Shown here piece by piece: positions 7,665 through 48,794 of a stretch of DNA of 64,000 nt. How positions within the stretch are numbered: the first letter of the stretch is position 1; every line of letters begins with the position of its first letter. The notes beneath the pieces were generated by a model, which saw nothing but the letters and a program-made list of their open reading frames with translations, did not search any database and was not told the origin of the DNA. This DNA is from Tenacibaculum sp. (GTDB taxonomy: Bacteria; Bacteroidota; Bacteroidia; Flavobacteriales; Flavobacteriaceae): positions 18,171 through 82,170 of the forward strand of contig JAGYHQ010000002.1 in NCBI GenBank assembly GCA_018456245.1, in the 5' to 3' direction. Made by a program: the position numbers and the translations under genes.

Positions 7665-7708
7665 CTTATTGACGAAAAGTGTCAAAACTTTCATTTTTCG
7701 TCAATAAG
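7665..7708 (+). promoter_or_regulatory. inverted repeat CTTATTGACGAAAA-N16-TTTTCGTCAATAAG
   Basis: perfect 14-bp arms; TATATTTG at 7712-7719 follows. Confidence 0.8.
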
Positions 7709-7732
7709 GAGTATATTTGTGAAAAATTTGTT

Positions 7733-8938
7733 ATGATAATAAGAGACACATACCTAAATAAATTACGAAAATTAAAAGATCAAAATTTAATTAAAGTCAT
7801 TACAGGTATAAGAAGATGTGGAAAATCAACATTGTTAGAAACCTTTAAAAATGAACTAATTTCTTCAGGTATTTCTGACAAGAATATTATTTTTATAAAT
7901 TTTGAAGAACGAGAAAATATAACATATTCATCTTGGGTTATTTTATATGATGAAATTATAGCAAAGGTAAATACTAATGAAAAATATTATATATTTTTAG
8001 ATGAGGTTCAACTTATTGATGACTTTGAAAAATTGGTTAATAGCTTATTTACCAAAAAAAATATTGATTTGTATGTTACAGGGTCAAATGCGTATCTTTT
8101 ATCAAGCGAATTAGCAACACTCTTAACAGGAAGATATATTGCTATCAATGTTCAACCATATTCGTTTAAAGAATATTTATTAGCAAATGAAAACACGCAA
8201 AATACTGACCGATTATTTCGTAAATATATAAATGAAAGTTCTTTTCCTGAATCAGTTACATTGTCAAAAAATAGTAACGATTTGGTTAATGATTATTTAC
8301 AATCTATATATGATACTGTCATTATTAAGGATATTGCACAACGACATAAATTACGAAATATAGATAATCTGCATCGTATTGTCAGTTTTTTGTTTGATTC
8401 TGTTGGTTCGTATATTTCACCTACAAATATTGCTAAACAACTTAATAACAACTCACAAAAAAGTATCTCACACAATACGATTAGTAAATATTTAGATTTT
8501 TTGACACAATCATATATTCTTTATAAAGCACCTCGTTACGATATTAAAGGGAAAGAACTTCTTTCAACAAATGAAAAATATTATATCGTTGATTTAGGAT
8601 TACGAAATATTACAACAACTAATAAATACGATACAGATTTGGGACATAAATTAGAAAATGTAGTTTATTTTGAATTATTAAGGCGTGGTGGTAAAGTATA
8701 TGTTGGAAAATACAAGGATAGAGAAATTGACTTTGTAGTGCAAAAACCAAACAATCAAATAGAATATTATCAAGTGGCATTTACAGTCAATAGCGAAAAA
8801 ACTTTTAAACGAGAAATTTCGGCTTTTGATAATATCAAAGATAGTTACCCAAAATATCTTTTAACTCTTGATTATGATACAAATAATATCAACGGAGTAA
8901 AAAAAGTAAATGTTATTGATTGGTTACTAGATGATTGA
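7733..8938 (+). CDS. AAA ATPase with DUF4143 domain
   Basis: TGIRRCGKSTLLETF Walker A, IFLDEVQ Walker B, ITGSNAYLLS, C-terminal nuclease-like REIDFVV; ATG at 7733 preferred over GTG 7679 because the inverted repeat overlaps the longer start. Confidence 0.88.
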   Translation: MIIRDTYLNKLRKLKDQNLIKVITGIRRCGKSTLLETFKNELISSGISDKNIIFINFEERENITYSSWVILYDEIIAKVNTNEKYYIFLDEVQLIDDFEKLVNSLFTKKNIDLYVTGSNAYLLSSELATLLTGRYIAINVQPYSFKEYLLANENTQNTDRLFRKYINESSFPESVTLSKNSNDLVNDYLQSIYDTVIIKDIAQRHKLRNIDNLHRIVSFLFDSVGSYISPTNIAKQLNNNSQKSISHNTISKYLDFLTQSYILYKAPRYDIKGKELLSTNEKYYIVDLGLRNITTTNKYDTDLGHKLENVVYFELLRRGGKVYVGKYKDREIDFVVQKPNNQIEYYQVAFTVNSEKTFKREISAFDNIKDSYPKYLLTLDYDTNNINGVKKVNVIDWLLDD

Positions 8939-8999: not shown

Positions 9000-9593
9000 T
9001 TACTTCATCAATTTCTTAACCTTTTGAACAGTTCCAAGAGAAACACCATTTAGTTTCGCTATTTTACGCAATGAATTAACTCCTAATTTTAATTCTTTCT
9101 GCACTCCTTTGTATTTTGCTAAAAACACCTCATCGCTTTCTTTTGAGCCTTTTTCTCTACCTTTATAAACTCCTTTTTGTTTGGCTAATTCAATGCCTTG
9201 CCTTTGTCGTTCTAACATTATTGACCTTTCCATTTCTGCAATATTAGCCATAACAGATATAATCAACTTAAACGCACTGTTTGGCTTTCCTTTGACTAAA
9301 CTTTCAATTCCTAAATTATCTACCTTTAAAATGACTTTCTTTTCATTTAAATATTCTAATGTTCTTAAAATATCAAATAAATTCCTACCTAATCGGTCAA
9401 TGCTTGAAACTGATAAATAATTTATTGTTCCTTGCTCTATTTCTTCAATAAGTTTTTTCCCTTGTTCTCGTTTTTTGAAATCAACAGCACCTGATACCAC
9501 ATCAATAAACCATTTTTCTGATTGGTCTCCTTGTTCTCTTTGACGGTCAATCTTTTGTTTTTCTGTACTAACTCTTATATATCTTGCTTTCAT
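9000..9593 (-). CDS. serine recombinase/resolvase family protein
   Basis: YIRVSTEKQKIDRQ, SIDRLGRNLFDILRTLEYL, C-terminal HTH. Confidence 0.93.
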   Translation of the reverse strand: MKARYIRVSTEKQKIDRQREQGDQSEKWFIDVVSGAVDFKKREQGKKLIEEIEQGTINYLSVSSIDRLGRNLFDILRTLEYLNEKKVILKVDNLGIESLVKGKPNSAFKLIISVMANIAEMERSIMLERQRQGIELAKQKGVYKGREKGSKESDEVFLAKYKGVQKELKLGVNSLRKIAKLNGVSLGTVQKVKKLMK

Positions 9594-9610
9594 CTCTAAA
9601 AAGGCTTAAA

Positions 9611-9639
9611 AACACCCTTAAAATAGATATAAGGGTGTT
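9611..9639. terminator. terminator hairpin between ardA-like gene and recombinase
   Basis: AACACCCTT / AAGGGTGTT, T/A-rich on both sides. Confidence 0.75.
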
Positions 9640-9648
9640 GTTTTTTAT

Positions 9649-10179
9649 TTATATATTTCTAAAATAATGATTATCACTTGTTGAATAATCTAACATAATA
9701 TTCCATGCTGTTCGCTCCCAATCTACATGAATGTAGTTTGGTAGGTTTTTTGGAATGTCGCCACAATCTTCTAATAAATTACTTACAAAATGAACATCAT
9801 TATCATATTCCCCACAATAACATTCTTCAACCTTTTCAATAATTTTGTAAATATCTTTTTCATAACATCCTACACAGTTACAATACGCCTCAATTACTTC
9901 AAAATCATAACTACAATTTTCTATAATTTCCATTATTTCAAAAATTTCATCAGAAATATAGCTTTCTGAAATTAATCCCATTTCTTTAAATAAATCAGGA
10001 CATTCATAATCTTGAAACATAAATTCAGGGTCTTGCTCATCTTTATGAAGATTATACATTTCTTTTTTTAATTCCTCATAACTAGAATAGTCTTCTAAAT
10101 TAAGCCATTTACCATAAATACTTCCTTCGTTGTACTTTTTGTAAGTACCAACATAAATGTTTACATTTGTCATAGTCAA
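9649..10179 (-). CDS. ardA: ArdA-like antirestriction protein
   Basis: NVNIYVGTYKKYNEGSIYGKWLNLEDYSSYEEL; acidic DNA-mimic composition. Confidence 0.88.
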   Translation of the reverse strand: MTMTNVNIYVGTYKKYNEGSIYGKWLNLEDYSSYEELKKEMYNLHKDEQDPEFMFQDYECPDLFKEMGLISESYISDEIFEIMEIIENCSYDFEVIEAYCNCVGCYEKDIYKIIEKVEECYCGEYDNDVHFVSNLLEDCGDIPKNLPNYIHVDWERTAWNIMLDYSTSDNHYFRNI

Positions 10180-10250: not shown

Positions 10251-10627
10251 ATTACCCTATAAATATACAAAAAACAAATTAATTGTACTAATTTTAGCAT
10301 AGGTATTTTTAATATAATTATTAAAAATATATACCACACTTTTTAAAGTTAAAAATGTATAAGGTTAGACCATAACCTAAAAATAATACAAAAGGATTTT
10401 ACACATAAAAGTGATAAAAATAAAATGTAGATAAATAAATTGTTGGCTTTTTGTTTTGACTGAATTAAAACATAGAGGGGTACACAAAAAAATTAAATAC
10501 CCTCCCCCCTATTTTGTGTAAGGTGGTTATATATAAATCTGAATTTGGAAAAAAAAAATGAAAAAGGAGTGATATTTTTTCTTATATTGCTATCGAAAAT
10601 TTTGAGAAAAAAGCGTTAGCTTTTGGT

Positions 10628-10854
10628 CTGTTGTTCAGAAATCTACCAAATTTTAAAAACAGCAATACAGATTCAAAAAGTTGATGTTCACGTTATAAGC
10701 GTGGGCTGATATTATTCTTGTATTGCGTAGGCTTTGGTAGAGCCTCTGACAGCGAGATAGTTGAAAGTCCTCGCTTTTTTTGTATATGAAATTTAAAAAG
10801 AGTTAATTTTATTCTGCTGTCAGAAATCTACCAAATTTTTAATCAGCAATACAG
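10628..10854. ncRNA. candidate structured noncoding locus, three related stem-loops (two direct, one inverted)
   Basis: copies 10628-10670 and 10814-10854 share TCAGAAATCTACCAAATTTT and CAGCAATACAG; 10719-10752 carries the three blocks in reverse complement. Confidence 0.6.
10751..10781 (+). terminator. rho-independent terminator after the inverted copy
   Basis: AGCGAG / CTCGCT then TTTTTT. Confidence 0.7.
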
Positions 10855-10874
10855 GATAAATTAGCCTTTAGACG

Positions 10875-10907
10875 GCAGGGGAAGTGTTTTTACACACTTA
10901 CCTCTGC
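10875..10907 (+). promoter_or_regulatory. strong hairpin in leader of the methyltransferase cluster
   Basis: GCAGGGGAAGTGT / ACACTTaCCTCTGC, 13 bp with one bulge and one G-T pair. Confidence 0.6.
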
Positions 10908-11014
10908 TGTGTACATAGGCATTAATTTGTGTAAAGGAATAAAATTTTGTTCCACTCTTTCAGTGTATTATTAGTTTGCTTTTGGAACGAGGCAAACGAG
11001 TAAAATGCTCTGTA

Positions 11015-11659
11015 ATGGGAAAACCCCAAGTAAAGACCAAAAAGCGAGTGGCTGACCATGGCGAAGTATTTACTAACGAAAGAGAAGTAAATGCCATGCT
11101 TGATTTGGTAAAAAACCAATGCCAACGCATAGATGCGACTTTCCTTGAACCAGCTTGTGGTGATGGTAATTTTTTGATTGAAATATTAAGGCGAAAACTT
11201 GAACTTGTAGCAAACCACAAACGAAACTCATATTCTTATTGTAAAAATTTAGTTATTGCTGTTAGCAGTTTGTATGGTGTGGAATTATTAGAAGATAATG
11301 CACAAGCCTGCCGTGAAAGACTTTATAATAAAGTTGAACAAACTTTCCCAAAATCATTAAAGACTTCTAATGAGTATTTAGAAGTAATGAAAACAATTCA
11401 ATTTATTTTAGATAAGAACATTGTGTGTGGCAATGCCTTGGACTATACTAAAGCAAACGGAACAGCTATTGTGTTTTATGAATGGAAATTTATAAATGAA
11501 ACTGATGTAAAAATACGATGTTTTGATTTTGAAGTAGTCGCAGAACAAGGCAAACAAATGTCTTTATTTTCTGACACAAACAAGGAAGTAAGCATTCCAG
11601 AGCATAACCAAGAGTTTAAACCAATTCATTATTTAAAACTTTACACTTATGCTGAATGA
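11015..11659 (+). CDS. methyltransferase-like protein, motif I present, no recognisable NPPY
   Basis: HGEVFTNEREVNAML, FLEPACGDGNFLIEIL; start moved from TTG 10976 to ATG 11015. Confidence 0.75.
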   Translation: MGKPQVKTKKRVADHGEVFTNEREVNAMLDLVKNQCQRIDATFLEPACGDGNFLIEILRRKLELVANHKRNSYSYCKNLVIAVSSLYGVELLEDNAQACRERLYNKVEQTFPKSLKTSNEYLEVMKTIQFILDKNIVCGNALDYTKANGTAIVFYEWKFINETDVKIRCFDFEVVAEQGKQMSLFSDTNKEVSIPEHNQEFKPIHYLKLYTYAE

Positions 11660-13148
11660 TTTATACAACCCAGATGTGCTGAATTGCCTTGCTAATTTGA
11701 GCAACGATGAAGTATTTACACCACCTCACATAGCCAACAAAATGTTAGATTTATTACCCAAAGAATTATGGCGTAATAAAGAGGCGAAATTTCTTGACCC
11801 TTTTTGTAAAAGCGGTGTGTTTTTACGAGAAATAGCCAAACGACTTTTAAAAGGTTTAGAGAACGAAATACCTGACCTACAAGAGAGAGTAAACCATATA
11901 ATGCAACACCAAATTTATGGTATAGGCATTACCGAACTAACGGCTTTACTCTCTCGCAGGAGTTTGTATTGTGCGAAAAACACCCAAAGCGAACACAGTG
12001 TAACCCACATTTTTAACAATGAAAATGGAAACATAGCCTTTGACAATATCCCTCACACTTGGGATAAAAACGGAAAATGCGAATACTGTGGCGTAAGTGA
12101 TAGCATTTTAGGCGATGATAAACGAAAAGATTTAGAAGTACACGCCTACCAATTTATACATAACGAAAACCCTTTTGAAGATATGCAATTTGATGTAATT
12201 ATAGGAAATCCACCGTATCAGTTAAATGTTGGTGTAGAAAAGAAAAATTTTGCAATAGCCATTTATCAAAAGTTTATAGAACAAGCCATAAAAATGAAAC
12301 CTCATTATTTATGTATGATTGTACCAAGTAGATGGTTTGCAGGCGGAAGAGGTTTAGATAGTTTTAGGGAACAAATGCTTAATGATAGACGACTAAAAGA
12401 GATACACGATTATCCTAATGCATCAGAAGTTTTCCCTGGGGTAGAAATAAAAGGAGGGGTAAATTATTTTCTTTGGCAAAGTGATTATAAAGGAGATTGT
12501 TTGATAAAAACTTATGAAGAAAATAAGTGTGTTTCGGAAATGAAACGACCTCTAAAAGAAAAAAATACTGATATATTCATTAGAATAAACAGAGCAATTC
12601 CTATTTTAAGAAAGATAAGAGCATTTAATGAAGATAGTTTTAATAAAAACATTAGTGTACAAACTCCTTTTGGCTTGTTAAGTTCTTTTAAATCATATAA
12701 AAAGACATCTTTTGAAAATTCTATTAAAGTATTTGGAAATAAATTTATAGGATATGTAAAAGAAGAGCAGATTAAGAAAAATAAACAATGGATAAAAGAC
12801 CATAAAATACTTATTCCAAAAGCAATAGGGTCTGGAAATAGCAAAACCGATTGGTTAAAACCTATTTACGCAGAGCCTAATTCTTGTTGCACACAAACAT
12901 ACTTAATTATCGGACCTTTTGCGACTAAAAAACGATGTAAAAATGTAATGTCTTATATCAATACTAAATTTTTTCATTTTTGTTTAACCCTAATAAAAAA
13001 TACACAAGATGCAATGAGAGGAGTTTATGAATTTGTTCCACAACAAAACTTTGATGAAGAATGGACAGATGAAAAGTTATATAAAAAATATGGTTTAACG
13101 GAGGAGGAAATAGCGTTTATTGAGAGTATGATTAGACCTATGGAGTAA
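11649..13148 (+). CDS. Eco57I-like N6-adenine DNA methyltransferase
   Basis: EVFTPPHIANKMLD, FLDPFCKSGVFLREI, VIIGNPPYQ. Confidence 0.88.
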   Translation: MLNDLYNPDVLNCLANLSNDEVFTPPHIANKMLDLLPKELWRNKEAKFLDPFCKSGVFLREIAKRLLKGLENEIPDLQERVNHIMQHQIYGIGITELTALLSRRSLYCAKNTQSEHSVTHIFNNENGNIAFDNIPHTWDKNGKCEYCGVSDSILGDDKRKDLEVHAYQFIHNENPFEDMQFDVIIGNPPYQLNVGVEKKNFAIAIYQKFIEQAIKMKPHYLCMIVPSRWFAGGRGLDSFREQMLNDRRLKEIHDYPNASEVFPGVEIKGGVNYFLWQSDYKGDCLIKTYEENKCVSEMKRPLKEKNTDIFIRINRAIPILRKIRAFNEDSFNKNISVQTPFGLLSSFKSYKKTSFENSIKVFGNKFIGYVKEEQIKKNKQWIKDHKILIPKAIGSGNSKTDWLKPIYAEPNSCCTQTYLIIGPFATKKRCKNVMSYINTKFFHFCLTLIKNTQDAMRGVYEFVPQQNFDEEWTDEKLYKKYGLTEEEIAFIESMIRPME

Positions 13149-13160
13149 GTTTAATGAGAG

Positions 13161-13727
13161 TTGAGAATTATGAAAGAAAAAATATTAAAGGCTATTTACG
13201 ACACTTATAATCATTCAAAAGAATTATTTGATGATGCTGACTTTCTCTTACAAGCAGGAAAAAAAGAAAGAGCATATACCTTTTTTCATTTTTCATTTGA
13301 AGAAAGTGGTCGTTTTTTTATTCTATTAAAGGTGTTGTTTGAATATTTACAAGGAAACATAGAGGCTAAAAACTTAAATTACAAATATATCAAAACCAAT
13401 GGATATGAAAATCATATAAAAAAATTAGAAGAAGCAACATTAAAAATGATGATAATTCCTGTTTGGAATGCAATAATGAACGGAGATAAAGAAGCAGAAA
13501 AATTTATTCTAAATTTTTATAAAAGTTTAAAATCAAATATTGACAAATACAATGATAATAAAAACCATAGTATTTACTTATCTTACATTAATAATGATTT
13601 CAAATTACCCAAAGATTTGATAACAGATGATGATTTGCACGAAATCAAAGAATTAGCAGAAATACAAATTATTAATTTGGAAAAACTATTTAAATGGGAG
13701 GCATTTCCAAAACCTATGAGGACTTAA
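13161..13727 (+). CDS. AbiV-like abortive infection protein (HEPN-like)
   Basis: DADFLLQAGKKERAYTFFHFSFEESGRFFIL matches the AbiV pattern. Confidence 0.72.
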   Translation: MRIMKEKILKAIYDTYNHSKELFDDADFLLQAGKKERAYTFFHFSFEESGRFFILLKVLFEYLQGNIEAKNLNYKYIKTNGYENHIKKLEEATLKMMIIPVWNAIMNGDKEAEKFILNFYKSLKSNIDKYNDNKNHSIYLSYINNDFKLPKDLITDDDLHEIKELAEIQIINLEKLFKWEAFPKPMRT

Positions 13728-13777
13728 AAAAGTATAGGCACAACTTGATTGAACTAAAAAAACAAAAATCCTAAAAA

Positions 13778-16363
13778 ATGAACAACCTACTAAACCAAAA
13801 CAATATACCAAGAATATACGCTTATAGTGATGAGCGATTTAAGGGCTGTTTAAAAGTTGGTTATACAACAAGAACAGCAGAAGAACGAGTTAAGGAACAA
13901 TACCCTGTAAACACACCTTATCAATCGTGGAAAATAGAACACGAAGAACTTGCTTTGAGAAAGGACGACTCATTTTTTACTGACCACGAAATTCATAGAA
14001 GGCTTAAAAAAATGGGCTTTGAACAAATACGAGATGAAAAGGGTGTATTAACCGAGTTTTTTCGTTGTAGTTTAGATGAGGTTAAAAATGCTATTCTTTC
14101 AGAAAGAAAAAATAAAGATTTTGAGATAAGCCGAGTGAATGATTTCAAAATGCGTCCTGAACAAGAGGAGGCAGTGAATAAAACGGCTCACTATTTTAAG
14201 AGTTTTGAACGAGAAGACGACAATATTATTCCTCACTTTTTGTGGAATGCGAAAATGCGTTTTGGTAAAACTTTCGCATCGTATCAGTTAGCCCAAAAAA
14301 TGCAATGGAAAAAAGTTTTGGTTTTGACTTTTAAACCTGCTGTTCGTTCTTCGTGGCGTGAAGATTTACAATCTCATATTGACTTTCAAGGTTGGCAATT
14401 TGTATCGCAAGATGAAGATGACAAAAGCGAAAAAGATATTGATAGAAATAGACCTTTTGTGTATTTTGGTTCGTTTCAAGATGTATTAGGGAAAGACAAA
14501 AAAACAGGTGGAATAAAAATTAAAAATGAATGGATACACGCAGAAAACTGGGATTGTGTGATTTTTGATGAATATCACTTTGGGGCGTGGCGAGAAAAAT
14601 CCAAAGACCTTTTTGGAAAAAATGAGGCTGATTTAAAGGAGTTAATGAAACAAGAAATAGAAGAACAAAAAGAACTTGCCAAAGAAAGTGGCGAGGATTA
14701 TGTAGATTATTTTGATGAAGATTTAATACCGATTACAACTGACCATTATTTGTATTTATCAGGAACACCTTTTAGAGCCATAAGTGTAGGCGAATTTATT
14801 GAAGAACAGATTTTTAATTGGACATATTCTGATGAGCAAAAAGCCAAAGAAGAATGGAATGATAAGAATGGTAAAAATCCGTATTTATCTTTACCAAAAA
14901 TGGTAATGCTGACTTATCAACTTCCTCAAAACATTCAGCAAGTAGCAATCAAAGGCGAGTTTAATGAGTTTGATTTGAATGAATTTTTCAAAGCCAATGG
15001 AAAGGGTAAAAATGCCAAATTCAAATATGAAAATGAGGTGCAAAGTTGGTTGGATTTTATTCGTGGGCAGTATTGGGTAGAACAAGATTTAAAGTCTAAC
15101 AAAAAAGCACCGATGCCATTTTCTGATGCTCGTTTGATACATTCGTTGCAACATACATTTTGGTTTTTACCGAATGTAGCCTCTTGCTATGCAATGGGAA
15201 ACTTATTGGCTAAAAATACTTATTTTAATGATTATAAAATTGTCGTTTCGGCAGGAACACAAGCAGGAATTGGGGAACAAGCCTTACCACCTGTAAGAAA
15301 TGCAATGGGTAATAATTCTTTGGAAACTAAAACGATAACGCTTTCGTGTGGAAAACTTACAACAGGGGTAACAGTAAAAGAATGGAGTGGTGTTTTTATG
15401 TTGAGGAATACGCAAAGTCCTGAAACTTATTTTCAAACGGTGTTTAGAGTACAATCGCCTTGGACAATTAAAAATCCTGATAAAACTTCGCCAAACCGAG
15501 AAGAAATTATCAAAGAACAATGTTATGTTTTTGACTTTGCACCTAATAGAGCATTGAGCCAAATTGCGACATATAGTAGTCAATTAAATGCAAACCCAAA
15601 CGAAAATAAAAGTCCTGAACAAAAAGTTGCAGAGTTTATTAAATTCTTACCTATTTTGGCTTATGATGGTAGCGTAATGACTGAAATAGATGCAGGAAAA
15701 CTCTTGGATATAGCAATGAGTGGAACAACTGCTACACTATTGGCAAGGCGTTGGGAAAGTGCATTGCTTGTGAATGTGGATAATGTCACTTTACAACGCT
15801 TAATGGCAAATGAAAAGGCTATGAAGGCATTGATGAGTATTGAGGGATTTCGTTCGTTAAATAGTGAAATTGAAACGATTGTTGGGAAACCAGCGACTGA
15901 AATAAATAAACCCAAAGGGGAATGTATAAAGTGTAAACAAAAACCTTGCGTGTGTGCTAAACCACCAAGAATATGTCCGAAATGTAAAGAACAAAAACCT
16001 TGTAAGTGTAAAGAAGAAAAAAGTTTACGCAAAAAAATACAAGAGAAGTTGATAAAATTTGCTACTCGTATTCCTGTGTTTATGTATCTGTCAGAGTACA
16101 GAGAACAAACTCTTAAAGATGTGATTACGCAATTAGAACCTGATTTATTTAAAAAAGTAACAGGACTTTCGGTTGCAGATTTTGAGTTGTTAGAAAAGAT
16201 AGGTGTATTCAATGGGGCTTTGATGAATGATGCTGTGTTTAAGTTTAAACGCTATGAAGATGCCTCTTTGAGTTATACGGGTATTGCGACTTATGATAAT
16301 TTACCACAAGTCGGTTTATTTGATACTACGGTAACGAGTGAGGAATATGAGGAAATGAAGTAA
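13778..16363 (+). CDS. GIY-YIG (T5orf172-type) nuclease / SF2 helicase fusion with Cys-rich insert
   Basis: RIYAYSDERFKGCLKVGYTTRTAEERVKEQ; WNAKMRFGKTFASYQLA; CVIFDEYHFGAWRE. Confidence 0.85.
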   Translation: MNNLLNQNNIPRIYAYSDERFKGCLKVGYTTRTAEERVKEQYPVNTPYQSWKIEHEELALRKDDSFFTDHEIHRRLKKMGFEQIRDEKGVLTEFFRCSLDEVKNAILSERKNKDFEISRVNDFKMRPEQEEAVNKTAHYFKSFEREDDNIIPHFLWNAKMRFGKTFASYQLAQKMQWKKVLVLTFKPAVRSSWREDLQSHIDFQGWQFVSQDEDDKSEKDIDRNRPFVYFGSFQDVLGKDKKTGGIKIKNEWIHAENWDCVIFDEYHFGAWREKSKDLFGKNEADLKELMKQEIEEQKELAKESGEDYVDYFDEDLIPITTDHYLYLSGTPFRAISVGEFIEEQIFNWTYSDEQKAKEEWNDKNGKNPYLSLPKMVMLTYQLPQNIQQVAIKGEFNEFDLNEFFKANGKGKNAKFKYENEVQSWLDFIRGQYWVEQDLKSNKKAPMPFSDARLIHSLQHTFWFLPNVASCYAMGNLLAKNTYFNDYKIVVSAGTQAGIGEQALPPVRNAMGNNSLETKTITLSCGKLTTGVTVKEWSGVFMLRNTQSPETYFQTVFRVQSPWTIKNPDKTSPNREEIIKEQCYVFDFAPNRALSQIATYSSQLNANPNENKSPEQKVAEFIKFLPILAYDGSVMTEIDAGKLLDIAMSGTTATLLARRWESALLVNVDNVTLQRLMANEKAMKALMSIEGFRSLNSEIETIVGKPATEINKPKGECIKCKQKPCVCAKPPRICPKCKEQKPCKCKEEKSLRKKIQEKLIKFATRIPVFMYLSEYREQTLKDVITQLEPDLFKKVTGLSVADFELLEKIGVFNGALMNDAVFKFKRYEDASLSYTGIATYDNLPQVGLFDTTVTSEEYEEMK

Positions 16364-48058: not shown

Positions 48059-48794
48059 TATTTATCAATTTATCAAGTTCAATAATATCTTGGTCCAGGA
48101 TTAATAATTTGGCATTATTTTTTTCAATTTGAACATCAATTTTAGTTCTTTTGGCAATTGTCAAATTTTCCTTTAAACTTTCAATATTCAGCCTTTCTAA
48201 CTTCTTGGTAATTTTACTTTTATTAGCACGTTTATTGTTTCTGCGTTGTAACAGTTGAGCAGGAGATAAATCGGTAAAATCAGAGGTTTTTGGCAGTAAT
48301 ACAACCTTATGATTAACATAATGCTCAAGTATCTTTTGAATGTTGTCAATTTCATCAAAAAGGCGTTCTATTTCAATACAGATTTTCAAAGCACGAATTT
48401 CATCGTCTTTATGTAAATCATTAAGTTGTAATTTCAATGATACAGCCTTTTGGAAGTTATCTCGTTGCAATCGTGCCACTTCGTGCAAATCCTTATGAAG
48501 TTGATTCAACTTGTAAAAAAATAGGGGAGTAGTTGCCTTTTTTTCTTGATTATTAACTTTTAAATCATCCGTTTTAGACTTATTTAAATTAGTAATTTTT
48601 TGACTATCAGTATTTATTATTTCTTGATTATCTTTTAATTTACTCAACTCATAAGTCAATTTATCAGCATTAGCTTTGGTTTCTTTTTTCAAAAAAAGAC
48701 GAATAAGATTAGGTTTTGCACCTTTAAGAGTTTGATACAAAGCTATGCCTTTTTGGTAATCCTGCCCGTTATTTAACCATTCTTGTACTTTCAT
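48030..48794 (-). CDS. phage coiled-coil hypothetical protein
   Basis: Lys/Glu/Leu-rich helical sequence. Confidence 0.5.
   Translation of the reverse strand: MKVQEWLNNGQDYQKGIALYQTLKGAKPNLIRLFLKKETKANADKLTYELSKLKDNQEIINTDSQKITNLNKSKTDDLKVNNQEKKATTPLFFYKLNQLHKDLHEVARLQRDNFQKAVSLKLQLNDLHKDDEIRALKICIEIERLFDEIDNIQKILEHYVNHKVVLLPKTSDFTDLSPAQLLQRRNNKRANKSKITKKLERLNIESLKENLTIAKRTKIDVQIEKNNAKLLILDQDIIELDKLINSDYDKLTSY

Follow-up and report, generated by a model that had tools for sequence, protein, structure and literature searches.

A 173-nt RNA element encoded at positions 10609–10781 (+ strand) of the window, by which we mean the whole 64,000-nucleotide stretch of Tenacibaculum DNA analyzed here, is almost certainly a representative of a new and widely spread family of structured leader RNAs. 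On the strength of comparative sequence analysis, we consider it probable, at roughly two chances in three, that the element functions as a transcription attenuator located in the leader of the downstream mRNA. Related RNAs are carried by about one fifth of genus genomes and by 15% of the Bacteroidota genomes sampled, yet they fall outside every family in Rfam 15. They precede genes for SusC-like nutrient receptors, ECF sigma factors, secreted proteins, and restriction systems, the control of which is poorly understood in Bacteroidota. The family is a candidate for a new class of riboswitch or attenuator, and the presence of covariation on two rival folds makes the proposed switch directly testable.

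Architecture of the Element

An earlier note on this region described a triplicated stem-loop comprising two direct copies (A and C) and one inverted copy (B). The repeat blocks underlying that description are present: TCAGAAATCTACCAAATTTTAAA at 10635–10657 recurs at 10820–10842 with one mismatch, CAGCAATACAG forms the end of both A (10670) and C (10854), and B carries the reverse complements TGTATTGC (10719–10726), TTTGGTAGA (10733–10741), and TCTGACAGC (10745–10753). The local stems AAAT/ATTT (in A and C) and AGGCT/AGCCT (in B) also exist and enclose complementary 7-nt loops, and all three segments are free of ORFs of at least 60 aa. However, alignment of the window copy with its relatives assigns A to the 5′ arm and B to the 3′ arm of a single bipartite element of ~170–185 nt, and places C in the 5′ domain of another copy. 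The difference between the A and B stems, previously read as a compensatory change, does not involve homologous hairpins; A and B pair with each other. Genuine compensation is observed between whole elements, with TCTACCAAA/TTTGGTAGA in the window being replaced by TCTGGTAAA/TTTACCAGA and TCTGACA/TGTCAGA in sister copies from the same genome. That the repeats exceed chance expectation is borne out by folding relative to shuffled sequences (z = −4.3 for the A-B leader and −6.1 for B-C) and by the existence of related elements in many genomes; single-sequence fold z scores for the three copies are −4.3, −7.5, and −6.5.

The complete element (match to covariance model R2, 121 bits, E = 7.7e-22) was itself part of the set used for model building, and independent evidence is therefore provided by its relatives. 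All of its parts lie on the + strand. The 5′ half can close into a hairpin, D5, whose strands AAGCGTTAGCTTTTGGTCTGT (10611–10631) and ACAGATTCAAAAAGTTGATGTT (10667–10688) pair with a predicted energy of −18.8 kcal/mol. Its loop bears the 5′ arms of P1 (10630–10639, within A), P2 (TCTACCAAA, 10642–10650, which includes the CTACCAA loop singled out earlier), and P3 (GCAATACA, 10662–10669), together with the local AAAT/ATTT hairpin Ha (10639–10653), which is 90% paired. At the apex, TTCACG (10687–10692) is the 5′ strand of an apical hairpin whose 3′ strand, AAGCGTGGGCT (10697–10707), doubles as the 5′ strand of a second large hairpin, T, and so the two hairpins compete for it. The T loop contains the 3′ arms, namely TGTATTGC of P3 (within B), TTTGGTAGA of P2, and TCTGACAGC of P1, and the local AGGCT/AGCCT hairpin Hb (10729–10745), whose pairing is conserved. 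T is closed by its 3′ strand at 10766–10776 and, with the adjoining U-run (AGTCCTCGCTT and U-run, 10766–10781), constitutes a predicted intrinsic terminator. A GCGAG/CTCGC stem followed by T7 is also present at ~10752–10781, in keeping with the terminator earlier noted after B. By family standards, the T stem in the window is a weak one (−13.0 kcal/mol, including a U·U mismatch).

Covariation Supports Two Mutually Exclusive Folds

When the 5′ and 3′ arms are paired throughout as a rod, 89.7% of cells are paired across 84 distinct sequences, compared with 70.2% for shuffled partners and 35–41% when the strands are slid relative to one another. Cells in which both nucleotides have changed number 521 versus 156 among the 84 distinct elements, and all four Watson-Crick pair types are represented in P1. 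In strand-permutation tests, z scores of −31.7, −18.4, −23.7, and −9.0 were obtained for P1, P2, P3/P4, and the apical hairpin, respectively. Comparable signals link the extreme 5′ strand to the strand preceding the apex (D5, z = −17.3) and the 3′ strand of the apex to the strand at the 3′ end (T, z = −15.9 and −16.7). For P1, P2, P3, D5, T, and the apical hairpin, 0/20000 permutations reach the observed value. Shared ancestry is retained in the signal by these permutations, but we argue that ancestry alone does not produce the covariation, because two control strand pairs are flat (z = −0.7 and −0.9). Absence of conservation among homologues or of covariation had been named beforehand as the outcome that would count against the element, and the opposite of both is strongly evident.

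D5 and T are helices that a plain rod cannot accommodate. A model with a single rod closed by a stem between the 5′ and 3′ ends was discarded, since this end stem shows no covariation, the changes in its 3′ strand tracking those in the apex 3′ strand; T and D5 took its place. The T stem is typically 10–16 bp long and is followed within 8 nt by at least five T residues in 71/85 copies, which is the form of an intrinsic terminator. P1, P2, and P3 place complementary sequences in the loops of both D5 and T, so that loop-to-loop joining of these hairpins is also possible. The nature of the pairs differs among helices: P2 is nearly devoid of G·U (1 in 602 pairs), a scarcity that would suit a loop-loop contact, whereas T and the apical hairpin contain frequent G·U pairs (14% and 19%, respectively), in line with pairing at the RNA level. 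The local hairpins AAAT/ATTT and AGGCT/AGCCT are conserved across relatives, as are the internal-loop nucleotides GAAA...UUUC and GGU...ACC. Many copies carry a further hairpin just past the U-run, with loop nucleotides that complement the T 3′ strand (z = −5.9).

A Second, Partly Degenerate Copy in the Window

Segment C (10814–10854) lies within a 5′ domain spanning 10795–10866 (+ strand) that begins with AAAAAGAGTTAATTTTATTCTG, which aligns to the family consensus AAAAAGCGTTAGCTTTTATTCTG. Comparison with that consensus reveals the same P1, P2, and P3 5′ arm letters as in the complete element, and a D5-like stem closed by CAGGATAAATTAGCC. Because covariance models assign it only 16–17 bits (R2, 16 bits, E = 0.17), we regard this copy as degenerate. 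Its 3′ half has been replaced, and the sole remainder (10949–10997, + strand) consists of a GTTCC strand at 10949–10953 and a hairpin, GTTTGC-TTTTGGAACGAG-GCAAAC (10974–10997), with a GGAAC loop complementary to that strand, an arrangement that matches the downstream loop pairing of the family. This hairpin ends 17 nt upstream of the first in-frame ATG of the methyltransferase gene (11015), and the region 10790–11010 folds with z = −7.0. In folding, B pairs with either A or C, as the earlier note had stated. On the opposite strand (10692–10870), B and C resemble an antisense element at 18–21 bits because the rod is nearly palindromic; such an element would overlap the sense copy, with arm B common to both. 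Elsewhere in the window, a weak R2 match at 48663–48755 (+ strand; 23.7 bits, E = 0.005) has the element ends AGCATTAGCTTT ... GCTATGCCTTTTT but no arms, and is possibly a decayed copy.

Distribution and Family Status

A blastn search of the source genome with 10400–11000 recovered two more places at 70–74% identity, and a search with one of these sister copies yielded a fourth copy in that genome and additional copies in other families. Covariance models likewise find four element places in the genome. The first model, built from 8 copies, gave full-length matches in 35/151 family genomes (sampled at nearly one per genus) and in 4/4 genomes of one genus outside the family. With the second, built from 85 copies, matches were obtained in 34/168 genus genomes and in 45/299 phylum genomes, the latter reaching into other families and more distant classes. 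Carrying genomes usually have 1–8 copies. A pattern scan of named genomes detected the element in Flavobacterium, Zunongwangia, Flagellimonas, Leeuwenhoekiella, Aequorivita, Aquimarina, Chryseobacterium, Kaistella, and Sinomicrobium, among others. A pattern scan of viral contigs gave three matches inside coding sequence, apparently by chance; blastn against phages and plasmids returned short matches of low significance only.

The earlier failure to recognize a known family is borne out for Rfam 15. At the gathering threshold, the window gives only a tRNA located elsewhere, and 20 element loci give only tRNA and DUF805b RNA, both outside the element; in E-value mode, only weak matches to unrelated families appear. 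A transcript map of Flavobacterium psychrophilum contains 64 structured 5′ regions, some of which lack an Rfam match (PMC9723704). We found no description of the element in the literature searched, and one may exist beyond the literature covered.

Leader Position and Downstream Genes

An exact match to the Bacteroidota −7 box TAnnTTTG occurs between −100 and −12 relative to the element in 111/132 copies, compared with 2/132 in a control stretch, and the density of this motif climbs steeply between −80 and −20. In the window, the candidate box TGAATTTG (10540–10547, + strand) lies 69 nt upstream of the element and is weak, having one mismatch to the motif. The first downstream gene lies a median of 137 nt away and shares the strand of the element in 124/133 cases. 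These positions indicate that the element constitutes a 5′ mRNA leader.

Sequence motifs identify 20 SusC-like proteins, 8 ECF sigma factors, and 18 lipoprotein-like proteins among the products of 124 first genes, and by a crude test 83/124 are secreted, versus 34% of all ORFs at the same loci. Pfam analysis of selected downstream genes revealed a TonB receptor, an ECF sigma factor, TssD, a GmrSD restriction enzyme, a type III modification methylase, a HEPN protein, and DUF805. Such diversity of first genes is unusual for regulation by a single ligand. It also speaks against the earlier suggestion of a guide-like RNA dedicated to the cluster in the window, and a CRISPR/tracrRNA or other guide function, which would call for a constantly linked nuclease, is not supported, as unrelated genes follow the element at most loci. 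One genome (G452) carries a family of secreted β-propeller genes with one leader copy per gene (L180–L187). A T9SS sorting tail is present in the one β-propeller protein examined from it, and two leader-gene units follow in succession within 2.4 kb at one locus (L187, 1831–4357).

As previously noted, the element in the window precedes a cluster of methyltransferase (MmeI/Eco57I-like), AbiV, and T5orf172-ResIII helicase genes. The first of these (11015–11659, + strand) encodes an MmeI-like DNA methyltransferase domain, with the first in-frame ATG at 11015 in an ORF open from a TTG at 10976. The whole cluster (11015–16363), which contains two methyltransferase parts, the AbiV HEPN gene, and the helicase, has the appearance of a type IIG enzyme divided among several genes; separate parts of one 1359-aa PADLOC model are matched by the second methyltransferase and by the helicase. 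Directly upstream on the − strand (9000–10179), genes for a serine resolvase and an ArdA-like antirestriction protein point away from the restriction cluster, and an AAA_14/DUF4143 ATPase at 7679–8938 is a very strong match to the PADLOC candidate defense family PDC-S01.

A Proposed Terminator Switch

The features that favor attenuation are a leader situated after a promoter and before genes on the same strand, a stem followed by a U-run, and an exclusive antiterminator conserved by covariation, in which the 5′ strand of T has its second partner in the apical hairpin. In the terminated state, D5 and T would both form and RNA polymerase would halt at the U-run. In the read-through state, the arms would be zipped into a long rod with an apical cap, which would block T and permit polymerase to enter the genes; the loop located soon after the U-run in many relatives may then catch the freed 3′ strand of T. 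In the window, the complete leader and the partly degenerate second 5′ domain would govern the methyltransferase/AbiV/helicase restriction cluster. The rod state is predicted to be lower in energy than D5 plus T by a median of 6.7 kcal/mol (5.5 kcal/mol in the window), and therefore both states should be reachable. Masking the 5′ arm and the apex strand causes T to be favored in 77/85 copies, so whatever stops the 5′ arm from pairing would be expected to promote termination. Possibly, the loop interaction formed by P1–P3 and the T hairpin are compatible with each other and do not compete. The attenuator-like role suggested in the earlier note receives comparative support as a prediction, and the interpretation given there is, as a whole, partly supported.

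The most serious alternative, which we nonetheless judge unlikely, is that T is an ordinary terminator and that the compact two-hairpin transcript is an independent small RNA acting in trans, with the downstream gene having its own promoter. A clear promoter where the element begins and a U-run where it finishes would suit such an RNA, and a free product of ~200 nt is expected whenever T forms. However, sense −7 motifs are nearly absent from the interval between the U-run and the gene (0–4 per 20-nt bin, ~140 loci). The same-strand placement of the next gene, often within 45–140 nt, and the conserved downstream loop complementary to the 3′ strand of T also favor a leader over a free-standing RNA.

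Less probable still is an attenuator set by a cognate antisense or trans-acting RNA in the style of pT181/pIP501 or CopA-CopT, in which the hypervariable arms would serve as addresses private to each operon. Support for this view comes from a genome with nine copies, whose leaders precede related secreted proteins. Among these copies, the non-arm parts average 95% identity and the 5′ arms 63%, and every one of the nine pairs best with itself (mean of about −38 kcal/mol versus about −18 kcal/mol for swapped partners). The topology of loop-loop contact plus lower stems resembles that of CopA-CopT, and the near-complete intolerance of P2 to G·U is likewise in keeping with it. Conversely, the downstream proteins in this genome share a mean identity of only ~33%, and because of this divergence, drift of the arms by time alone may suffice; a claim that the arms evolve faster than neutrally was withdrawn on the same grounds. 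A selected need for private arm addresses is possible. Antisense promoters were sought as TAnnTTTG, the only promoter type examined, and are at background save for 12/141 loci at +20 to +39, where the motif falls within sequence conserved in a single clade. In L037, L047, L050, and similar loci, TTTCAAAGCTATCTTC is conserved at about +20 to +39 past the element and reads TAGCTTTG on the opposite strand, which in that clade could be an antisense promoter. Nor does the source genome contain a partner for TTGGTAGATTTCTGA at up to one mismatch beyond A and C, and these results weigh against the antisense RNA pair that had been entertained earlier.

A DNA-level function, as a mobile or recombination hairpin akin to integron attC sites, REP/RAYT elements, or serine-resolvase sites, appears very unlikely. 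This was a first idea (attC/REP), invited by the several dispersed copies per genome, the location of some copies near contig ends, and the serine resolvase gene 1 kb upstream of the window copy. It was dropped in view of the close upstream promoter, the U-run, and the G·U pairs in T and the apical helix; same-strand genes follow, and two alternative helix sets are sensible only in single-stranded RNA. Inspection by eye revealed neither inverted RYYYAAC...GTTRRRY ends of the attC type nor, at the other loci looked at, a neighboring resolvase. Least plausible of all is a leader-peptide attenuator, in which ribosome stalling on a translated short ORF selects the fold, as the best-conserved ATG column is occupied in 35/85 copies but not in the other 50, no reading frame is conserved, and in the window this ATG opens a frame of only four codons (ATG TTC ACG TTA TAA).

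Within the attenuator reading, a more ambitious version can be envisioned, although we find it fairly unlikely. The family could constitute a phylum-wide bistable leader in which the terminator and antiterminator are two hairpins of a single molecule, fused loop to loop by hypervariable arms that are private to each operon and act as its address, and in which on/off heterogeneity is made possible without DNA inversion. If this were true, on/off variation would be conferred on surface receptors and restriction systems, both of which face phages.

Comparison with Known Systems

Among RNAs already described from these bacteria, DUF805b RNA (RF02914) resembles the element in being a Bacteroidota cis-regulatory RNA near start codons. 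It differs in being a 35-nt hairpin (GGCGGAAgCCGAAAAgCC with a GAGUAGG tail) that usually occurs alone, the upstream DNA having no special fold at most matches. DUF805b RNA reportedly stems from a 2017 study of 224 candidate RNAs. In one genome (G121) it lies 10–30 nt downstream of the element at three places, and at L068 it scores below the cut-off; it is absent from the source genome of the window at E 0.001. It was rejected as a component of the element, being usually independent and, where the two co-occur, located downstream. Many DUF805b RNAs (L151–L179, e.g., L159, L166, and L171) are found directly behind a σ54-like promoter, TTTGGCACG-N4-TTGAAA, which would place that family in a σ54 regulon. 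Flavo-1 RNA (RF01705; named in PMC9723704) is, like the element, a structured Flavobacteriaceae RNA without an assigned function, and gives no match in the window or in the 20 element loci.

Parallels are also offered by plasmid systems. CopA-CopT of plasmid R1 and the pT181/pIP501 systems control replication genes by antisense RNA, the latter by attenuation. As in the element, two hairpins with complementary loops can be converted to extended pairing, the pairing sequences are variable and private, and terminator/antiterminator logic is employed. Unlike these systems, the element holds both partners in one molecule and precedes chromosomal genes, and an antisense promoter is not found in most of its copies. 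With attenuators and terminator riboswitches, the element shares a 5′ leader position, a terminator stem with a U-run, and a strand with two mutually exclusive partners. It departs from the known examples of these classes in lacking an Rfam 15 match, in the unusual diversity of the genes it would regulate, in its hypervariable arms, and in its antiterminator, which would be a rod of ~30 bp assembled from the loops of two hairpins.
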